From contig JABIQT010000001.1 in NCBI GenBank assembly GCA_018667995.1, forward strand, positions 1 to 7,204: DNA of 7,204 bases, read 5' to 3'. The notes beneath the pieces were generated by a model, which worked only from the letters and a program-made list of their open reading frames with translations, was not told the origin of the DNA and made no database searches. The DNA is from Candidatus Latescibacterota bacterium. GTDB taxonomy: Bacteria; JAAXHH01; JABIQT01. Made by a program: the position numbers and the translations under genes. Within the stretch, counting starts at the first letter, position 1, and the number at the start of each line of letters is the position of its first letter. Below, piece by piece: positions 1 to 7,204 of this stretch.

Positions 1-78
1 CTTCACGTTGCTTCTGATCACCCAACACACGCTATGAATGACGAGATGCCTGTGGCAGTGAGTAGAAGCAACGTGAAG
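1..78. repeat. Perfect 15-bp inverted repeat spanning the first gene's start
   Basis: The arm at 1-15 (CTTCACGTTGCTTCT) is the exact reverse complement of 64-78 (AGAAGCAACGTGAAG), with 48 bases between. The ATG at 34 lies in the loop and the right arm encodes part of the N-terminus (codons 11-15). A 15-bp perfect match this close is very unlikely by chance. The left arm begins at the first base of the window, so the repeat may be longer. It could be an operator pair for the adjacent winged-helix protein, a long-loop mRNA hairpin over the start, the edge of an element, or a fold-back artefact if this is a contig end. Confidence 0.85.
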
Positions 79-756
79 GACAGGCTGGTGACCCACCTAA
101 TAGAGATGCCAGTGGGTACAGACTGTGCCCCCAGGTGCCTGGCTTCGTATCTCGGCATCGACATAGGAGACCTTCATCAGCTGAGCGTAGAGCTTTCCAG
201 TGAGGGGGTGCCTGTGTGCTGGTTGCACGCCCATCTGCCGGTCTTCGGATACTGGTATGCGCACAATGCAGAGGAACTCCTGGCATTCCGGCAAGCGCTC
301 GGAGACGAGAATGCGCGACAGCTTTCCGGTATCGACATAGCTCTCGAGAAAATGAGGCAGGGGGGTTTGGCTTCCGACTCAACCGAACGCCCCAATCCTG
401 AAGACCGCAGGATTCCAGAGCCAACTGCAGACAGACGCGGTCCGGGCGACAGCGCCCATGTGCTGGACTTCGAGGAGCAAATGTCTGGCTGGGGTGCCCA
501 ACTGTGTCCTGACTTTGTGCCAACTCGACAGGAGCTGTTGCTCCTCGCAAAACACTGGTACGATTGGGTCGACAAGCACAACTACTTCCTCACCCTCAAT
601 GTTTCCCTTACGTGGATTCGCCATCGCGACTACTCCATGGCACGCATCGGCGAAATCGTCGATGTCTTGGGCGAACAGGTCCTGCAGGAGCGAGGGATAT
701 TGCCCAATGATGATGAAGAGTTTCTTGAGGAGGGTTATCCAGATGAATGCCATTAA
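34..756 (+). CDS. Winged-helix-like hypothetical protein (possibly 5'-incomplete)
   Basis: This encodes 240 aa from the ATG at 34. Residues 14-107 fit a winged helix-turn-helix layout: a first helix (VKDRLVTHLIEMPVG), a helix-turn-helix region around 33-57 (CLASYLGIDIGDLHQLSVEL), a wing around 60-75 with VPVCWLHA and GYWYA, then a long charged helix. This layout occurs in small phage-type and BirA-like DNA-binding proteins. A polar linker (about 110-145) leads to an acidic, Trp-rich C-terminal region of unknown fold. The start is uncertain: no good ribosome binding site precedes ATG 34, and the frame stays open back to base 1, so the gene may begin before the window; ATG 46 and GTG 73 are alternatives. 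It overlaps the next frame (ATG 743) by 14 bases, implying coupled translation. It could be the regulator of the downstream operon. The fold is judged by eye. Confidence 0.7.
   Translation: MNDEMPVAVSRSNVKDRLVTHLIEMPVGTDCAPRCLASYLGIDIGDLHQLSVELSSEGVPVCWLHAHLPVFGYWYAHNAEELLAFRQALGDENARQLSGIDIALEKMRQGGLASDSTERPNPEDRRIPEPTADRRGPGDSAHVLDFEEQMSGWGAQLCPDFVPTRQELLLLAKHWYDWVDKHNYFLTLNVSLTWIRHRDYSMARIGEIVDVLGEQVLQERGILPNDDEEFLEEGYPDECH
727..734 (+). promoter_or_regulatory. Strong ribosome binding site for the small frame at 743
   Basis: GAGGAGGG lies 8 bases before the ATG at 743, inside the 3' end of the preceding gene. It is the best Shine-Dalgarno match in the left block. It is the main argument that translation really initiates at 743 although the frame is soon stopped. 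Confidence 0.65.
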
Positions 757-1090
757 CACTCACAGGAGCAGGTACCTGATACATACGGTTGGCCTGGACG
801 GGCCTATGGTCGCTCAATGCTTCTACATGGACTGTGCCGCAACAACGCGACTACTGGAAGACTTGCGTTCACCGTCCTCGGTGTAAGAGTCAGAAGGCAG
901 AATCAGGATTGCTGCTAGGACGCGGTCTCAGTATTTCTCTGATCTGCATATACCGTACGTTACAAACGCGGTCTTCGAGGCAGGCGCCCGTTGGGCCTTT
1001 GACAGAAGTTTATCTGCGGATAGATTCCGTTTTCCCGGTATCAGCGCCTACAAGGTTCATAGGACTCTTTCTCTGTCACATACGGTATGA
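743..1090 (+). pseudogene. Small gene interrupted by an in-frame TAA (or a 47-aa ORF plus open continuation)
   Basis: From ATG 743 the frame encodes 47 aa (including YLIHTVGLDGPMVAQCF) and stops at TAA 884-886. The same frame then stays open for 67 more codons, with a protein-like mix including SDLHIPYVTNAVFEAGARW. It ends at TGA 1088-1090, which overlaps the next gene's ATG as ATGA. Strong ribosome binding site, overlap with the upstream gene, and ATGA junction downstream are what an intact 115-codon operon member would show if the TAA were a sense codon (CAA, for example). The second segment has no ATG, GTG or TTG, so it cannot start independently in the usual way. Options are a recent nonsense mutation, a sequencing error, stop readthrough, or a genuine 47-aa product followed by chance openness. 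The product is not recognised. Confidence 0.5.
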
Positions 1091-1836
1091 CGCCAGCAAA
1101 AAGCCCGAGCCCCAGGCTCTTCAAGACCATCTTTCAGGCACGATATGCACCTTCGCTGGCCTTCTATGCCCGTTTCGCTGAGGCGGCATCGGAGTTTGAG
1201 AACTATCCGAAGTGGGAGACAACCTGGAACTCTGTAGTCAGGCAAGACTACGCGCACATGTGCAGTATGATCGTGCGGCATGATTTTCTCGCATATGAGC
1301 AGGACAACGAGGACGAGGAACTGGAGAAAGAGCGTGTCCATCAGCTTCTTTCCGACGTACCTACGGCACTAGGGATTGAACGGTTCACGAGGCTCGGTCT
1401 GAGGAGACGCTATCTCGTGCCGACCGGGATGGCATTTTCTGAGCTGGTCTCAGTGTTCGAGCTCAAGTTCATGTCACCCAGGCATGTCGATGTACCCGGT
1501 GTTCCAAGCGATCTCGAGGATCTTATGTACCGAGCCGACATGAGGGACGGTGACGATCGGTTTCACATTGGCCTAGGACCTGTGCATAGAGACGAGTTGC
1601 CGTTGGCATTGGGACTCAACCATGATCGTCATCTGGATCCCAGCAGCCCAGACCAACTGGAGATTGTGCTTGATAGCTATCCCGATGTCGCGCTATTTAT
1701 TGATGTGGATCTCTACCGAGACGAAGACGACTGTGCTGTCGGGGTTGCCAACGATTTCTATAAGTCTGCTTGCGATAGGTTAAGTCAGATCGCAAACGGA
1801 TATGCAGACTACTGCTTCTCCCAGAAGGTGGCATGA
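1087..1836 (+). CDS. Hypothetical protein with TIGR04255-like features
   Basis: This encodes 249 aa. ATG 1087 was chosen because it forms an ATGA overlap with the preceding frame; no separate ribosome binding site is evident, so translation is probably coupled. The order of features recalls the TIGR04255 'sporadically distributed protein' family: an N-terminal strand/helix region, a RLGLRRRYLVP segment at about 102-112 where that family has a 'GLRYINRI'-type motif, then the late strand LFIDVDLY (203-210) followed by an acidic turn and a final amphipathic helix (DFYKSACDRLSQIANGYADY) where that family has 'LDIDVF' and a terminal helix. No catalytic motif, membrane segment or signal peptide is visible, so a cytoplasmic binding or sensing role is a guess. 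The family match rests on remembered motif spacing. The next gene starts one base after its stop. Confidence 0.7.
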   Translation: MTPAKSPSPRLFKTIFQARYAPSLAFYARFAEAASEFENYPKWETTWNSVVRQDYAHMCSMIVRHDFLAYEQDNEDEELEKERVHQLLSDVPTALGIERFTRLGLRRRYLVPTGMAFSELVSVFELKFMSPRHVDVPGVPSDLEDLMYRADMRDGDDRFHIGLGPVHRDELPLALGLNHDRHLDPSSPDQLEIVLDSYPDVALFIDVDLYRDEDDCAVGVANDFYKSACDRLSQIANGYADYCFSQKVA

Positions 1837-1837
1837 C

Positions 1838-2497
1838 ATGACCCTAGCAGCCCTCAGGAGTGCGAAAGCCGGATCCTCCACGACTCTGTCAGTAGACGAG
1901 TCTCAGGAGGATCCCGGCCCGAAGTTGATCAAATTCCCGAGGTCACGTCGCGACCCGCAGACCGAAATCGCCATGGAGGCCATGGAGAACGACGCAGACG
2001 ATCAGGAGGTCGATCCCTCGGACGCTACGTCAGGGCGATCCTACACGGAGGTCTCGTCCTCCAAACGCCAGCCGATGCATATGGTCAGCTCCGAGTCAAG
2101 GCGACGCGGTACCGTCAGCCCGCCATATAGGCTCGCGGTAAGGGTACACTTGGTTCAGCAGTTGTCCGACGATCTGAAGGTGATGGCGCGAACAGCTCGT
2201 TCTACAGCTGCAACGTCTGCCGTCGCGTCGTTTTTGGAAGCCGTACACAGGATGGCCGACGTCATACCGGGAGAGACGCTTACCGATGTTGCTTTCGCCC
2301 TCGCCAATGCACTGGTAGTAGACAACCGTTGGACAAACTACCGCTCGGATCAATTCGAAGGAGCCAGGGAGATTCTGTCTGACCTTGGCAACCGTCGTCA
2401 GGTGACAGACAGGGCAGCCGACAAGGCTATCCTCGAATTGGAGGATCTGGGCTTCTCCACGACTGCTTTCTCCTTCGACATTGAGACCAGCGACTGA
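1838..2497 (+). CDS. Hypothetical protein with polar N-terminus and helical C-terminus; candidate PIN partner
   Basis: This encodes 219 aa from ATG 1838, preceded by AGAAGGTG at 1823-1830 and starting one base after the upstream stop. The in-frame ATG at 1802 is rejected because it would overlap the previous gene by 35 bases without a better binding site. Residues 1-95 are polar and low in hydrophobics, with acidic stretches (NDADDQEVD around 51-59) and basic clusters (RSRR, SRRR), so probably disordered. From about residue 97 the sequence is helix-forming (VRVHLVQQLSDDLKVMA, SAVASFLEAVHRMADVI, TLTDVAFALANALVV). The family is not recognised. A position directly before a PIN-like protein, with a flexible region attached to a helical domain, is compatible with an antitoxin or scaffold. 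That role is inferred from context alone. A later start dropping part of the polar region cannot be excluded. Confidence 0.75.
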   Translation: MTLAALRSAKAGSSTTLSVDESQEDPGPKLIKFPRSRRDPQTEIAMEAMENDADDQEVDPSDATSGRSYTEVSSSKRQPMHMVSSESRRRGTVSPPYRLAVRVHLVQQLSDDLKVMARTARSTAATSAVASFLEAVHRMADVIPGETLTDVAFALANALVVDNRWTNYRSDQFEGAREILSDLGNRRQVTDRAADKAILELEDLGFSTTAFSFDIETSD

Positions 2498-2502
2498 ATC
2501 CC

Positions 2503-3327
2503 TTGTCGGCCGACCGACATTTCCTAGACACAACAGTTGTGCGCGGCCTTCTGCTGGGCACACCAGCGTACAAACAACGCCTGGGAGTCCGGATCGGAGG
2601 TGAGAAATACGTTTCGCGCTACGTGGCAATGGAAGTCCGACGGGGATATGTCTGTCACCTTATTGATTTCTACTCGCTTCTCTCAATGGATCATGTCCAT
2701 TCGCTGAGTGAAGCAATGACTCTCTGGACGCACTCGTTCAGCGGCAGAGGAGTGAAGGCGGTCCTCGGACTGGTAGCTCAACTGATCAGTGGCCACAGGC
2801 TCGACCCATCTACTCAGCGAGACAAGACCCGAGTTCAAGTCGCAATCCGGTCGTACATCCGATCGATCGAGGCCAAGATGAGGGGCCAGTTCAAGGACAC
2901 GGGACAGGACCGGACTCGCTGCCGAAGGGCTCGAGTAGCTCTCCGTTCTTTCGACGACATCTCACTCCGCGCCTTCCGCAAGCAGTTTGGAGACACCGAT
3001 GCCTGCAGACGTGGGTGTGCGATAGACTCGTTCTTGACCGGAACCTACCCGGTCGAGGTTGAGACTTTCATCAGGCAAGCCGAAGGAATGACTGGCCGTG
3101 AGTCGCTCGGCTTTCGAAAGGTTGCCGGAGAGTTGAAGCGTCTGTCTGAGAAGGGAGCACAAGTCTGCACCTGCGCCAGTTGTTCAAAGATCGGGGATGC
3201 TGTGATCGCACTTGACGCTCCGCGCCACATGGATCTCGCGCACACGGACCATTCATTCGATCATCTTTGTCCTCCTATCGGTCAGCCCCACACCAAACTC
3301 CCCCCCGAGAGCGCCGCAAATCCCTAG
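2503..3327 (+). CDS. PIN-like domain protein (putative ribonuclease)
   Basis: This encodes 274 aa from TTG 2503, five bases after the upstream stop; an in-frame TGA at 2482-2484 rules out a longer N-terminus. TTG is the only ordinary start ahead of the key FLDTTVV strand (Asp9). PIN-type acidic positions are present in order: Asp9 in FLDTT, Glu44 in YVAMEVRRGY, Asp232 in KIGDAVIAL, and Asp249 in AHTDHSFDHLCPPIG, which matches the 'T-D-x-x-F' end seen in PIN families. PIN proteins are usually metal-dependent RNases, often toxins. At 274 aa it is about twice a VapC-type toxin: a helical, basic insert of roughly 170 residues separates the Glu from the late Asp residues. Cys222, Cys224 and Cys227 (CTCASC), plus Cys139, could bind metal. 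It is probably the effector of the block. PIN assignment is fairly confident; substrate is unknown. Confidence 0.8.
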   Translation: MSADRHFLDTTVVRGLLLGTPAYKQRLGVRIGGEKYVSRYVAMEVRRGYVCHLIDFYSLLSMDHVHSLSEAMTLWTHSFSGRGVKAVLGLVAQLISGHRLDPSTQRDKTRVQVAIRSYIRSIEAKMRGQFKDTGQDRTRCRRARVALRSFDDISLRAFRKQFGDTDACRRGCAIDSFLTGTYPVEVETFIRQAEGMTGRESLGFRKVAGELKRLSEKGAQVCTCASCSKIGDAVIALDAPRHMDLAHTDHSFDHLCPPIGQPHTKLPPESAANP

Positions 3328-3616: not shown

Positions 3617-3801
3617 GAGGGGATTTGAGTGATTGGCCTGAGAATACCCACTGGCAGAAAGTAGAACGGTTGTGAGGGATGAATGCTTCGACTACGATCG
3701 CCACACGGTTGTCTCGGGCATGGCTGCATTGAGCAAGCACGCCGGGCAATCTGCGGGCCCCCGCGCAAGGGCTGAAAAGACTGCGCCGAGAACCGACATG
3801 C

Positions 3802-3807
3802 AGGAGA
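3802..3807 (+). promoter_or_regulatory. Ribosome binding site fixing the first caspase start
   Basis: AGGAGA sits 8 bases before GTG 3816. It supports this GTG over the far upstream ATG 3672, and over ATG 3858, which has a weaker match ahead of it. Confidence 0.7.
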
Positions 3808-3815
3808 CACGACCC

Positions 3816-5432
3816 GTGAAAATTGGCAAGCTGCGGCACATTGTCCACGAGCAGTGGATGCGAGCCACCATCGCTGCCCTCGTCCTGCTCCTGGCCCCGA
3901 CGGGAGCTCACGCCACGGATGATGATCGGGGGATTCGCGCTGTTTACGCGGAGACTCGCACCGCGTTGGTCATCGGCAATGCCGCCTATCCGAACGGACC
4001 CCTACGCAATCCGGTCAACGATGCGTTGGACCTGGCTGAGTTGCTCACGCAGCGCAGCTTCGACGTGACGCTACTCACTGACGCGGACAAGCGAGAGATG
4101 GAAACAGCGATCCGGGAATTCGGCAAAAAGCTTGCCGGCGGCGGCGTGGGGCTGTTCTACTACGCCGGTCACGCTGTTCAGGCTGACGGCGTGAACTACT
4201 TGATGCCCATCGATGCCGCACCCACCAAAGAAACTGACACCCAGTACATGGCGGTAAACGCCGGGCTCGTGCTTGGTGAGCTGGGCAGTAAAAGCAACCG
4301 GCTGAACTTGGTGATCCTCGACGCCTGCCGCGATAATCCCTTCGCACGCAGCTTCCGTTCGGCGAGCCGTGGCTTGGCGACGATGGACTCTCCGCGGGGG
4401 ACCCTTATTGCCTACGCCACGAGTTCCGGCAAATCGGCTGCCGATGGGGATGGGCGCAACGGAACCTACACTCGGCATCTGATCGAACAGATGCGAGTAC
4501 CTGGGCAGGAATTGCAGGACATGTTCAGAGAAGTCCGTGCGAACGTCGAGCGGGCGACCGCCGGAGCGCAGATTCCGCAAGAGTGGGACAGCACTACGGG
4601 CCGTTTCTATTTTACTCCGATTGATGTCCTTGACGATCAACTCGATCTGACGACGGCGGAGCTGGCCCACTATCAGCAACTCCTTGATGAACAACGCGCC
4701 GCCGATCTCGCAATCGAAGATCTCCAGGCCAGCAAGTTCACCGCCATCGCCGAGATGGAGCGACAGATCGAGGCGTTGCGAATGCAGATCTCCGAACCAG
4801 GTTCGGCGGACAACACGCTGGATCAACTGCTCTCGCTCGGGAAGCAGCGAGAGCAGTATCAGAAGGACATGGAGGCTGCGAGGGAGAAAGCCGAGGAGGA
4901 ACGCCGCGCGCGGGAGGCGAAAATCGCCAGACTCCGCGCCTTGGAGCTATCCAAGCGTAGGGCGAGGTTTGAAGCCGACTACGAGAAGTACAGATGGATC
5001 ATTAACAGTGAACTCATGCAGCCCGCAGAGAGAATGCGAGCGTGGCGATTGATATGCACCACCTGGGGCGTGGAAGACGCCAGTGAAATCGCAGGCCCGC
5101 TGTTTTGGGATGGTGTAGCCGGCACTGTCTCCGCCACAATGCCTGACCTGAACGGAATTAAGGTCGTCATCGTGTTCAGGGAGAGCCGGAACTTGGACGC
5201 AGGGGCGGCTGAATCACTCCTGCTTTCAATGGGGGCCAGTTCCTCATTCGTCAGACAGGTCGAATCCAGCCACACTGGTGAACTCCACTACTGGGATATA
5301 GACAGCTCCATGGCTGCGCACGTTGCAGTAGCTCTGGAACAGATTGAGCAATTGAGCCCAATCCCGGGGAAAGATGCAAACGCCAAGAAGAATGTACGCC
5401 AACCAGAAATGCGGCTCTACATTACCAGATGA
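3816..5432 (+). CDS. Exported caspase-like cysteine peptidase (C14) with coiled coil
   Basis: This encodes 538 aa from GTG 3816. The ATG at 3672 would add 48 charged residues before the signal peptide and is rejected. Residues 15-33 form a signal sequence (MRATIAALVLLLAPTGAHA, AHA cleavage motif); ATG 3858 at residue 15 is a credible alternative start. The caspase-fold domain starts at TALVIGNAAYPNGPLRNPVND; the catalytic dyad is His119 (YYAGHA) and Cys171 (LDACRDNPF), both intact. A long charged coiled coil covers about 275-385, then a linker with AWRLICTTW. The last part (about 447-513, KVVIVFRESR to LEQIEQL) is a small alpha/beta module of unknown role, similar in pattern to periplasmic peptide-binding or SPOR/LytR_C-like modules. 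The family cleaves proteins at specific residues; site of action is probably periplasmic or extracellular. A paralogue follows after 112 bases. Peptidase assignment is strong; substrate is unknown. Confidence 0.9.
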   Translation: MKIGKLRHIVHEQWMRATIAALVLLLAPTGAHATDDDRGIRAVYAETRTALVIGNAAYPNGPLRNPVNDALDLAELLTQRSFDVTLLTDADKREMETAIREFGKKLAGGGVGLFYYAGHAVQADGVNYLMPIDAAPTKETDTQYMAVNAGLVLGELGSKSNRLNLVILDACRDNPFARSFRSASRGLATMDSPRGTLIAYATSSGKSAADGDGRNGTYTRHLIEQMRVPGQELQDMFREVRANVERATAGAQIPQEWDSTTGRFYFTPIDVLDDQLDLTTAELAHYQQLLDEQRAADLAIEDLQASKFTAIAEMERQIEALRMQISEPGSADNTLDQLLSLGKQREQYQKDMEAAREKAEEERRAREAKIARLRALELSKRRARFEADYEKYRWIINSELMQPAERMRAWRLICTTWGVEDASEIAGPLFWDGVAGTVSATMPDLNGIKVVIVFRESRNLDAGAAESLLLSMGASSSFVRQVESSHTGELHYWDIDSSMAAHVAVALEQIEQLSPIPGKDANAKKNVRQPEMRLYITR

Positions 5433-5544: not shown

Positions 5545-7204
5545 ATGAGAATTTGCTACTTGGCCGGTGCTCTGCTCCTCCTCACCCTTGATGTCGAGGC
5601 CACAGAAGATTCCCGCGGGATTCGGGCAGTCTACAACGAAACCCGTACGGCTCTGGTAATCGGCAATTCTGCATACCCCAATGGTCCCTTGCGCAATGCG
5701 GCCAACGATGCGTCGGACATCTCGGAGCTGCTGGAGCAACGCAGTTTCGACGTGACGGTACTCATCGACGCAGATAAGCGACAGATGGAGACTGCCATGG
5801 AGACCTTCGGTGCAAAACTCTCCAAAGGGGGAGTGGGGCTGTTCTACTTTGCGGGACATGCCATACAGGTTCGGGGAATCAACTACCTCATGCCAATTGA
5901 GACCTCGCCGCGGAAGGAAGCTGACGTCGAGTACGTAGCGGTTGATATCGGACGCGTGCTGTCCGAGTTGGACAATTCGAACAACCGGTTGAACCTGGTG
6001 ATCCTGGACGCGTGTCGAGATAACCCCTTCGTGCGCAGCTTCCGAGGCTCGGCTAACGGCTTGGCTAAGATGGATGCACCGCGAGGTACCCTCATCGCCT
6101 ACGCAACGAGTCCCGGCAGGACGGCAGCAGATGGAGATTATGCGAACGGTATCTACACACAGCACCTGCTGGGGCAGATGCGGGTTCCAGGACAAGAGAT
6201 GCAACAGATGTTCAAGCGAGTGCGGGCAGCCGTGGAATCCGAGACGGCAGGCGTGCAGACACCGGAGGAGTGGGACCGGACGACGGGAGACTTCTATTTC
6301 ACACCGATCGACCAGCTCGATGAGCAGCTGGACCTGACAGCCGACGAGCTTGCGCGGTACCAGCAACTGGTGGCAGAGCAGCGCGCCGCGGACCGGGCCG
6401 TCGAGGAAATGGAAGCGGAAAAAGTCGCCACCATTGCTGAGATGGAGCGAAAAATAGAGTCGTTGCGGAATCAGGTGGCAGCACCGGGTAGCACCGACAG
6501 CTCTCTCGACGGGCTGATCGCGGCTGGCAAGCAGCGTGAACAGTTTCAGAGCGACTTAAGGGCGGCCAACCGCACGCGTGACGAGGAGATGGCCGGAGAA
6601 GTGGCTCGCCTCAAGGCGAGATTCAATACAGATTACAAGAAATACAGGTGGATCGCTGACGGAGATCTCATGCAATCTTCTGAGAAACTGCGCGCATGGC
6701 AATTGATCTGTAGCACATGGGATGTAGCGGGCGTGAGCGGTGAGCCAGGATCGCTGCAATGGGATGACAGGACGGGTAGGGTCATCATCAGGCCAAGCAA
6801 TCGTGATGACATGGTGTATGTACCGGAGGGGTCGTTCACGATGGGAGGACTCGACACTGACGAAGGTGAGAGACCCGCACAAGTGAACGTGGGTGGATTC
6901 TGGATCGACCGGACGGAGGTGACCGTCAATGCTTACCGTCGTTGCGTTGAGGCGGGCAAGTGTGGCAACCCCCTGAACTCTGGCTCCTGTAATTGGGGTT
7001 ATTCTAACCGGAGTGCACATCCGATCAACTGTGTGAGCTGGCACGACGCACAGGGGTATTGCTCGTGGGTGGAAAAGCGGTTGGCAACAGAGACGGAATG
7101 GGAGAAAGCGGCACGAGGAACAGATGGTCGGACCTATCCGTGGGGAGAAGAAGCCGCCGACTGTAGGCGCGCCGTCATGGGCAGAAATGGCAGTGGGTGT
7201 GGTC
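5545..7204 (+). CDS. Exported caspase-like peptidase fused to an FGE-sulfatase domain (3' end missing)
   Basis: The frame is open from ATG 5545 to the window end (553 codons visible); TAG at 5539-5541 makes this the first possible start. Residues 1-19 (MRICYLAGALLLLTLDVEA) are a signal peptide with a likely VEA cleavage site. The caspase domain has His105 (YFAGHA) and Cys157 (LDACRDNPF). A coiled coil runs about 260-358, then a linker with AWQLICSTW. From residue 423 (MVYVPEGSFTMGG) begins an FGE-sulfatase/SUMF1 domain with its usual landmarks: FWIDRTEVTVNAYRRCVEAG, NCVSWHDAQGYCSWV, KRLATETEWEKAARG, YPWGEE. In true formylglycine-generating enzymes this fold oxidises sulfatase cysteines, but many bacterial members serve as C-type-lectin-like ligand-binding modules; which applies depends on residues beyond the window. 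It is paralogous to the gene upstream through the linker. Domain calls are strong; function as a ligand-gated or secreted protease is inferred. Confidence 0.92.
   Translation, partial: MRICYLAGALLLLTLDVEATEDSRGIRAVYNETRTALVIGNSAYPNGPLRNAANDASDISELLEQRSFDVTVLIDADKRQMETAMETFGAKLSKGGVGLFYFAGHAIQVRGINYLMPIETSPRKEADVEYVAVDIGRVLSELDNSNNRLNLVILDACRDNPFVRSFRGSANGLAKMDAPRGTLIAYATSPGRTAADGDYANGIYTQHLLGQMRVPGQEMQQMFKRVRAAVESETAGVQTPEEWDRTTGDFYFTPIDQLDEQLDLTADELARYQQLVAEQRAADRAVEEMEAEKVATIAEMERKIESLRNQVAAPGSTDSSLDGLIAAGKQREQFQSDLRAANRTRDEEMAGEVARLKARFNTDYKKYRWIADGDLMQSSEKLRAWQLICSTWDVAGVSGEPGSLQWDDRTGRVIIRPSNRDDMVYVPEGSFTMGGLDTDEGERPAQVNVGGFWIDRTEVTVNAYRRCVEAGKCGNPLNSGSCNWGYSNRSAHPINCVSWHDAQGYCSWVEKRLATETEWEKAARGTDGRTYPWGEEAADCRRAVMGRNGSGCG

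Follow-up and report, generated by a model that had tools for sequence, protein, structure and literature searches.

A candidate tripartite toxin-antitoxin operon with a VapC-like PIN protein, an N-terminally extended antitoxin-like protein and a distant TIGR04255 relative

Which of the tightly packed reading frames at the start of a Candidatus Latescibacterota contig belong together, and what kind of system could they form? The window analysed here (the whole stretch of 7,204 nt) makes up contig C945 in its entirety; the assembly is fragmented (6.06 Mb, 1165 contigs). A preliminary description, made from the sequence alone, saw at positions 34-3327 a cassette of five co-translated frames, coding for a winged helix protein, a small frame and TIGR04255-like, antitoxin-like and PIN-like proteins, and considered that it could be a defence or toxin-antitoxin-type cassette.

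Gene content of the window

Gene A (34..756, + strand) codes for a protein of 240 amino acids and carries a coding bias of 0.143 bits/codon. Its product has no match in Pfam, NCBIfam, PADLOC, PHROGs or the PDB, so that the winged helix assignment finds no support in family or structure databases; just one weak partial match (E 8e-4) was found among 142 other genomes. The small frame proposed at 743-1090 was rejected as a gene: it is interrupted by an in-frame TAA at 884-886, has no codon bias and has no homologue. Codon bias between positions 757 and 1086 is close to 0 bits/codon in every frame, compared with 0.08-0.23 for genes A, C, D and E and the caspase gene; in the second half of this region, GC content is flat across codon positions, and the encoded peptides matched no family in Pfam, NCBIfam, PADLOC or further family searches. 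The segment 757..1086 is therefore probably the intergenic region 5′ of gene C. It contains one weak promoter-like match, a σ70-like site at 999-1026 (one found, 0.3 expected).

The 14-nt and 4-nt overlaps reported between consecutive frames both rest on the small frame and, since it holds a stop codon, are not real gene junctions. The two remaining junctions were described correctly: gene C (1087..1836, + strand, 249 amino acids) is separated by 1 nt from gene D (1838..2497, + strand, 219 amino acids), which is followed after 5 nt by gene E (2503..3327, + strand, 274 amino acids, TTG start). A Shine-Dalgarno sequence, AAGGTGG, is present at 1825-1831, 6 nt ahead of the ATG of D. Because gene A lies about 330 nt from C and has no relatives beyond the weak partial match, the supported unit is C-D-E; A is a coding orphan whose membership in the unit is not supported. 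Thus, frames A, C, D and E stand at the positions first given for them, and co-translation is supported for C, D and E only.

Downstream of E, positions 3672-5432 and 5545-7203 encode a tandem pair of related proteins that have caspase (Peptidase_C14) domains and regions resembling coiled coils, and the second of the pair runs on into an FGE-sulfatase domain; no link between the caspase genes and C-D-E was established.

Gene E and its upstream partner

Searches with E retrieved no Pfam (including PIN), NCBIfam or PADLOC match, and a search of PDB sequences with the E profile returned nothing significant. By tblastn, full-length relatives with 41-43% identity were found on Nostocales plasmids, and a genome scan retrieved 29 loci; taken together, the identities of full-length relatives span 41-44%. 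Residues D9, E44, D232 and D249 are invariant in an alignment of 22 sequences with full-length relatives, as are cysteines C140, C172, C224 and C227. An AlphaFold2 (AF2) model of E built from a 23-sequence alignment reached a pLDDT of 87.9 and a pTM of 0.86. Foldseek alone gave no significant match to this model. A second look at the Foldseek candidates with VIA-align placed VapC21 (5sv2) first, with a Z score of 10.9 and an rmsd of 3.2 over 133/135 residues; the top 19 rows were all VapC, FitB or PIN proteins, other VapC/PIN toxins scoring Z 7.5-10.6 and the first unrelated row Z 3.3. E thus has both the fold and the acidic active-site residues of VapC-type PIN toxins, and the PIN-like reading in the preliminary description is borne out.

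The corresponding acidic residues are separated by about 56 residues in VapC. In E, the distance between E44 and D232 is 188 residues, and it follows that E contains an insertion of ca. 130 residues, which is helical and contains conserved cysteines. The four invariant cysteines may bind zinc. As judged from the sequence and the model, E would cleave RNA and would be toxic to the cell unless relieved by its antitoxin.

Gene D is found next to E well beyond the window, in loci that retain the full DNA 5′ of E. We identified 26 complete D+E pairs with D directly upstream of E, nearly all in Nostocales cyanobacteria and several on plasmids; this tally counts loci rather than independent lineages, and some of them represent the same plasmid twice or split E genes. 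D cores also adjoin two broken copies of E (L035, L036), the E gene of L033, which is frame-split, and that of a Flavobacteriales genome. Plasmid-borne cyanobacterial copies often adjoin parA/parB or integrase genes. A conserved adjacent antitoxin gene, as in type II toxin-antitoxin operons, is therefore present, and the description of D as an antitoxin-like neighbour proved sound. D itself matches nothing in Pfam, NCBIfam or the PDB, and no known VapB, AbrB, RHH or Phd DNA-binding domain was recognised in it. We consider it highly probable that E is the toxin and D the antitoxin of the pair, in which D would neutralise E, and the toxin-antitoxin-type reading of the cassette was right.

In two divergent cyanobacterial D proteins (L024 and L030), the N terminus is longer by about 30 residues, which resemble DUF2281; the match is weak (E 0.018) and was obtained for the D of L024 only. 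Apparently decayed copies of E, consisting of a C-terminal remnant without D or C, are present in Bacterium UASB270 (L032:7902-8336) and in a Desulfobacterales MAG (L034:4152-4457). E was not found in viral contigs and phages.

Gene C and the N-terminal extension of D

Gene C has the codon bias of its genome. Its only orthologue adjacent to D-E, and the only C match among the loci, is that of the Flavobacteriales locus L031 (30% identity, same gene order), where an HTH_3 gene is followed by C, D and E and then by a tyrosine integrase. Among 395 genomes from the phylum to which L031 belongs, the E profile hit only that of L031 itself. C was not found in viral contigs, phages or plasmids. The recurrence check proposed for the cassette is hence answered: D+E is present on numerous contigs of cyanobacterial genomes as well as on several plasmids, and C+D+E in one Flavobacteriales genome.

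TIGR04255 is an NCBIfam family named "sporadically distributed protein". At its curated cut-off of 30 bits, the TIGR04255 HMM does not match C or any other protein of the same genome, and an HMM made from 70 TIGR04255 members scores C at only -0.1 bits. When profiles were compared by hhalign, the C profile (two sequences) aligned collinearly with the 70 TIGR04255 proteins with a score of 37.8 (P 1.7e-5), compared with at most 18.8 for 60 column shuffles and at most 21.0 for 80 unrelated ORFs; the C protein of L031 alone scored 29.2 against the TIGR04255 profile. The TIGR04255-like label thus fails by HMM at the curated cut-off and holds at the level of profile-profile comparison, where C appears as a distant relative of the family. 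The AF2 model of C (pLDDT 39.6) was unusable. Searches of PDB sequences with the C, D and TIGR04255 profiles returned nothing significant, TIGR04255 being without a solved relative. A match of C to Pterin_4a (E 0.0032, below the cut-off) was dismissed because it did not recur in the L031 orthologue.

The presence of C goes together with the length of D. Cyanobacterial D proteins comprise about 136 amino acids versus 219 in the window, where a low-complexity extension (residues 1-91, positions 1838..2110, + strand) precedes the core (residues 92-219). Measured against the profile of cyanobacterial D, the N-terminal extension comprises 91 amino acids in the D of the window and 74 in that of L031. 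Of 28 cyanobacterial D proteins encoded without C, 26 have an extension of -2 to 1 amino acids and two have one of 29-34, and none of the cyanobacterial D+E pairs has C or a D with the 91-residue low-complexity extension. Order-promoting residues make up 17.8% of the extension vs. 31.2% of the core of the window's D, and the reading frame of the extension carries a coding bias of 0.157 bits/codon. Coupling of C and the extension in the D family may be a single evolutionary event; the tree of E fits one or two.

We collected 77 TIGR04255 loci from three genome samples and took the next two genes on the same strand. Both downstream genes followed within 20 nt at 63/77 loci, compared with 8/153 size-matched control ORFs, for which the algorithm was identical except that a minimum gene length was also required. 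Family matches in third position are to HEPN (6), PIN (5), DUF7689 (3), PemK/MazF (1) and HicA (1), and those in second position to HTH_3 (5), Xre-like HTH (2) and SocA_Panacea (1). In the first 40 residues of second-gene products, order-promoting residues are depleted (p 4.8e-8) and the residues STNQGP are enriched (p 1.5e-10), p-values that are indicative only, since related loci are not independent and starts were chosen nearest to the preceding stop. The first genes display neither of these disorder-like signs, and the third genes at most a marginal rise in STNQGP (p 0.05). The TIGR04255 family stands ahead of many unrelated toxin-antitoxin pairs and may serve there as a guardian of the antitoxins. 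C is as long as TIGR04255 proteins and, like them, heads an operon in which an extended antitoxin and a toxin follow, but scores below the 30-bit cut-off. No paper mentioning TIGR04255 was found in a literature search, which is no proof of novelty, as most subscription papers and all preprints fell outside its scope.

As a second case of coupling, homologues of the partner protein of the HEPN toxins were sought in 365 genomes. Four HEPN-partner proteins with TIGR04255 encoded upstream (L143-L146) have long extensions; in three without TIGR04255 (L149, L150 and L151), the core begins at about residue 5, 7 and 37, respectively, leaving a short extension or none. The exceptions are L147 and L152, where very long N-terminal extensions are accompanied by an upstream overlapping ORF of about 235 amino acids that is not clearly TIGR04255 (P 0.19 for the pair; P 6e-4 for L152 alone) and that possibly represents another accessory class. 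With these exceptions, the HEPN-partner family supports the link between the tail and the accessory gene. At L148 (58-1881), a 607-amino acid protein carries the HEPN-partner core at its C-terminal end and is followed by a HEPN-like gene; by eye, its N-terminal part resembles ADP-ribosylglycohydrolases.

One can ask whether C is needed at all, that is, whether D and E suffice as a plain two-gene VapBC-like system, in which C would be a regulatory or passenger gene and the extension of D an unrelated DNA-binding or regulatory tail. About 26 cyanobacterial loci have D+E alone, so that C is dispensable there, and the kinship of C to TIGR04255 is distant. Yet C and the extension are gained or lost jointly, and TIGR04255 genes repeatedly stand in front of unrelated antitoxin-toxin pairs in which the antitoxin is N-terminally extended too, which makes the two-gene explanation unlikely. 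The comparison with VapBC itself runs both ways: its fold, its active-site residues and the partner gene directly upstream link E to VapC, but E also has the cysteine-containing insertion between E44 and D232, while D is not a recognised VapB and a third gene, C, is present.

Proposed action of C-D-E and comparison with TAC systems

The closest parallel is offered by toxin-antitoxin-chaperone (TAC) systems, such as HigBA1-SecB(TA) of M. tuberculosis and CmdTAC. The tail of TAC antitoxins confers chaperone dependence, is absent from chaperone-free homologues and also works when grafted to the N terminus (PMC5105189, PMC6377645). C-D-E resembles TAC in being a three-gene unit whose antitoxin is extended only when the accessory gene is present, and in both cases the accessory family goes with toxins and antitoxins of unrelated kinds (PMC5105189). 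It differs in having a TIGR04255-like accessory protein and a PIN toxin, with the accessory gene placed first; and the extension, likewise absent from accessory-free homologues, is N-terminal, not C-terminal. SecB (PF02556) has no match in the window's genome, and a SecB-like profile has no similarity to TIGR04255 (P 0.21) or to C (P 0.77). SecB was therefore rejected as a sequence relative of TIGR04255, and by sequence C is not a SecB-family accessory protein; a shared fold is possible. Since TIGR04255 is not SecB by sequence, C-D-E would work like TAC from outside the SecB-based class.

We favour, with a probability of roughly 0.6, the reading that C-D-E is one operon coding for a tripartite type II toxin-antitoxin system that works like TAC, with a non-SecB accessory protein and an N-terminal "addiction" tail. 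E would be a VapC-type PIN endoribonuclease toxin, bound and silenced by the C-terminal core of D. The long N-terminal extension would leave D unstable or aggregation-prone unless held by C, much as SecB-like chaperones hold the tails of TAC antitoxins. Were C diverted by stress or by a phage protein, D would be lost and E freed to cut RNA. The data directly show the gene order and its recurrence, the PIN fold and active-site residues of E, the distant kinship of C to TIGR04255, the usual succession of TIGR04255, antitoxin and toxin genes, and the joint occurrence of tail and accessory gene in two families; we infer the toxicity of E, its RNA target, its neutralisation by D, the binding of C to the extension and the trigger. 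For the chaperone-like action of C on the tail of D, we put the odds at about even; "chaperone" is an analogy, because TIGR04255 has neither SecB sequence similarity nor a solved relative. The addiction idea is directly testable, since nature offers versions of the system that have the accessory gene and the tail (C-D-E of the window and Flavobacteriales) and versions that lack them (D-E of cyanobacteria).

A defence role of C-D-E is possible. In CmdTAC, a phage capsid protein diverts the chaperone (PMC11618068), and with this precedent for sensing via a chaperone, C and TIGR04255 proteins could be, instead of stabilising chaperones, sensors or release factors of anti-phage systems that bind the extension and deliver D to a protease or answer phage proteins. 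Among the genes in second and third place of TIGR04255 units, some correspond to candidate defence models in PADLOC (PDC-M32A, PDC-M05B and HEPN_IX), and L031 adjoins an integrase gene. Nevertheless, no PADLOC model matches TIGR04255, C, D or E, relatives are absent from the viral contigs and phages searched, and no defence-island context was demonstrated; we rate a sensor or release factor as somewhat less probable even than the two-gene system. A reading in which the true antitoxin is C, by itself or together with D, and D is a linker or toxin subunit would suit the first position of C and the absence of a family match assigning a function to D, but is very improbable, as about 26 cyanobacterial loci retain D+E without C, and D must therefore suffice to control E there.

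If the TAC-like reading of C-D-E is extended to the whole family, TIGR04255 would be a second, SecB-unrelated class of antitoxin chaperones or adaptors, acting on N-terminal "addiction" tails of many unrelated antitoxin families (with HEPN, PIN, MazF, HicA and Panacea-type partners), and the window would represent a divergent case, whose VapC toxin bears an insertion. We advance this generalisation tentatively, at slightly less than even odds. If true, the upstream gene would expose many undescribed toxin-antitoxin pairs. Partners known from Panacea (PanA/PanT) and HEPN systems occur in TIGR04255 units, but the window has neither domain; in the passages of Kurata et al. covered here, accessory third genes are allowed for and TIGR04255 is not named.

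Two further observations concern the third genes of TIGR04255 units. A cluster of 13 members, from L060, L067 and about 11 further loci with TIGR04255, shares a "QSCDL"-like motif; the member tested has no Pfam match, and the cluster is a candidate undescribed toxin family. At L125 and L128, TIGR04255 is followed by a protein that by eye is HicB-like, with an N-terminal extension of about 50-60 amino acids, and then by a HicA-like protein.
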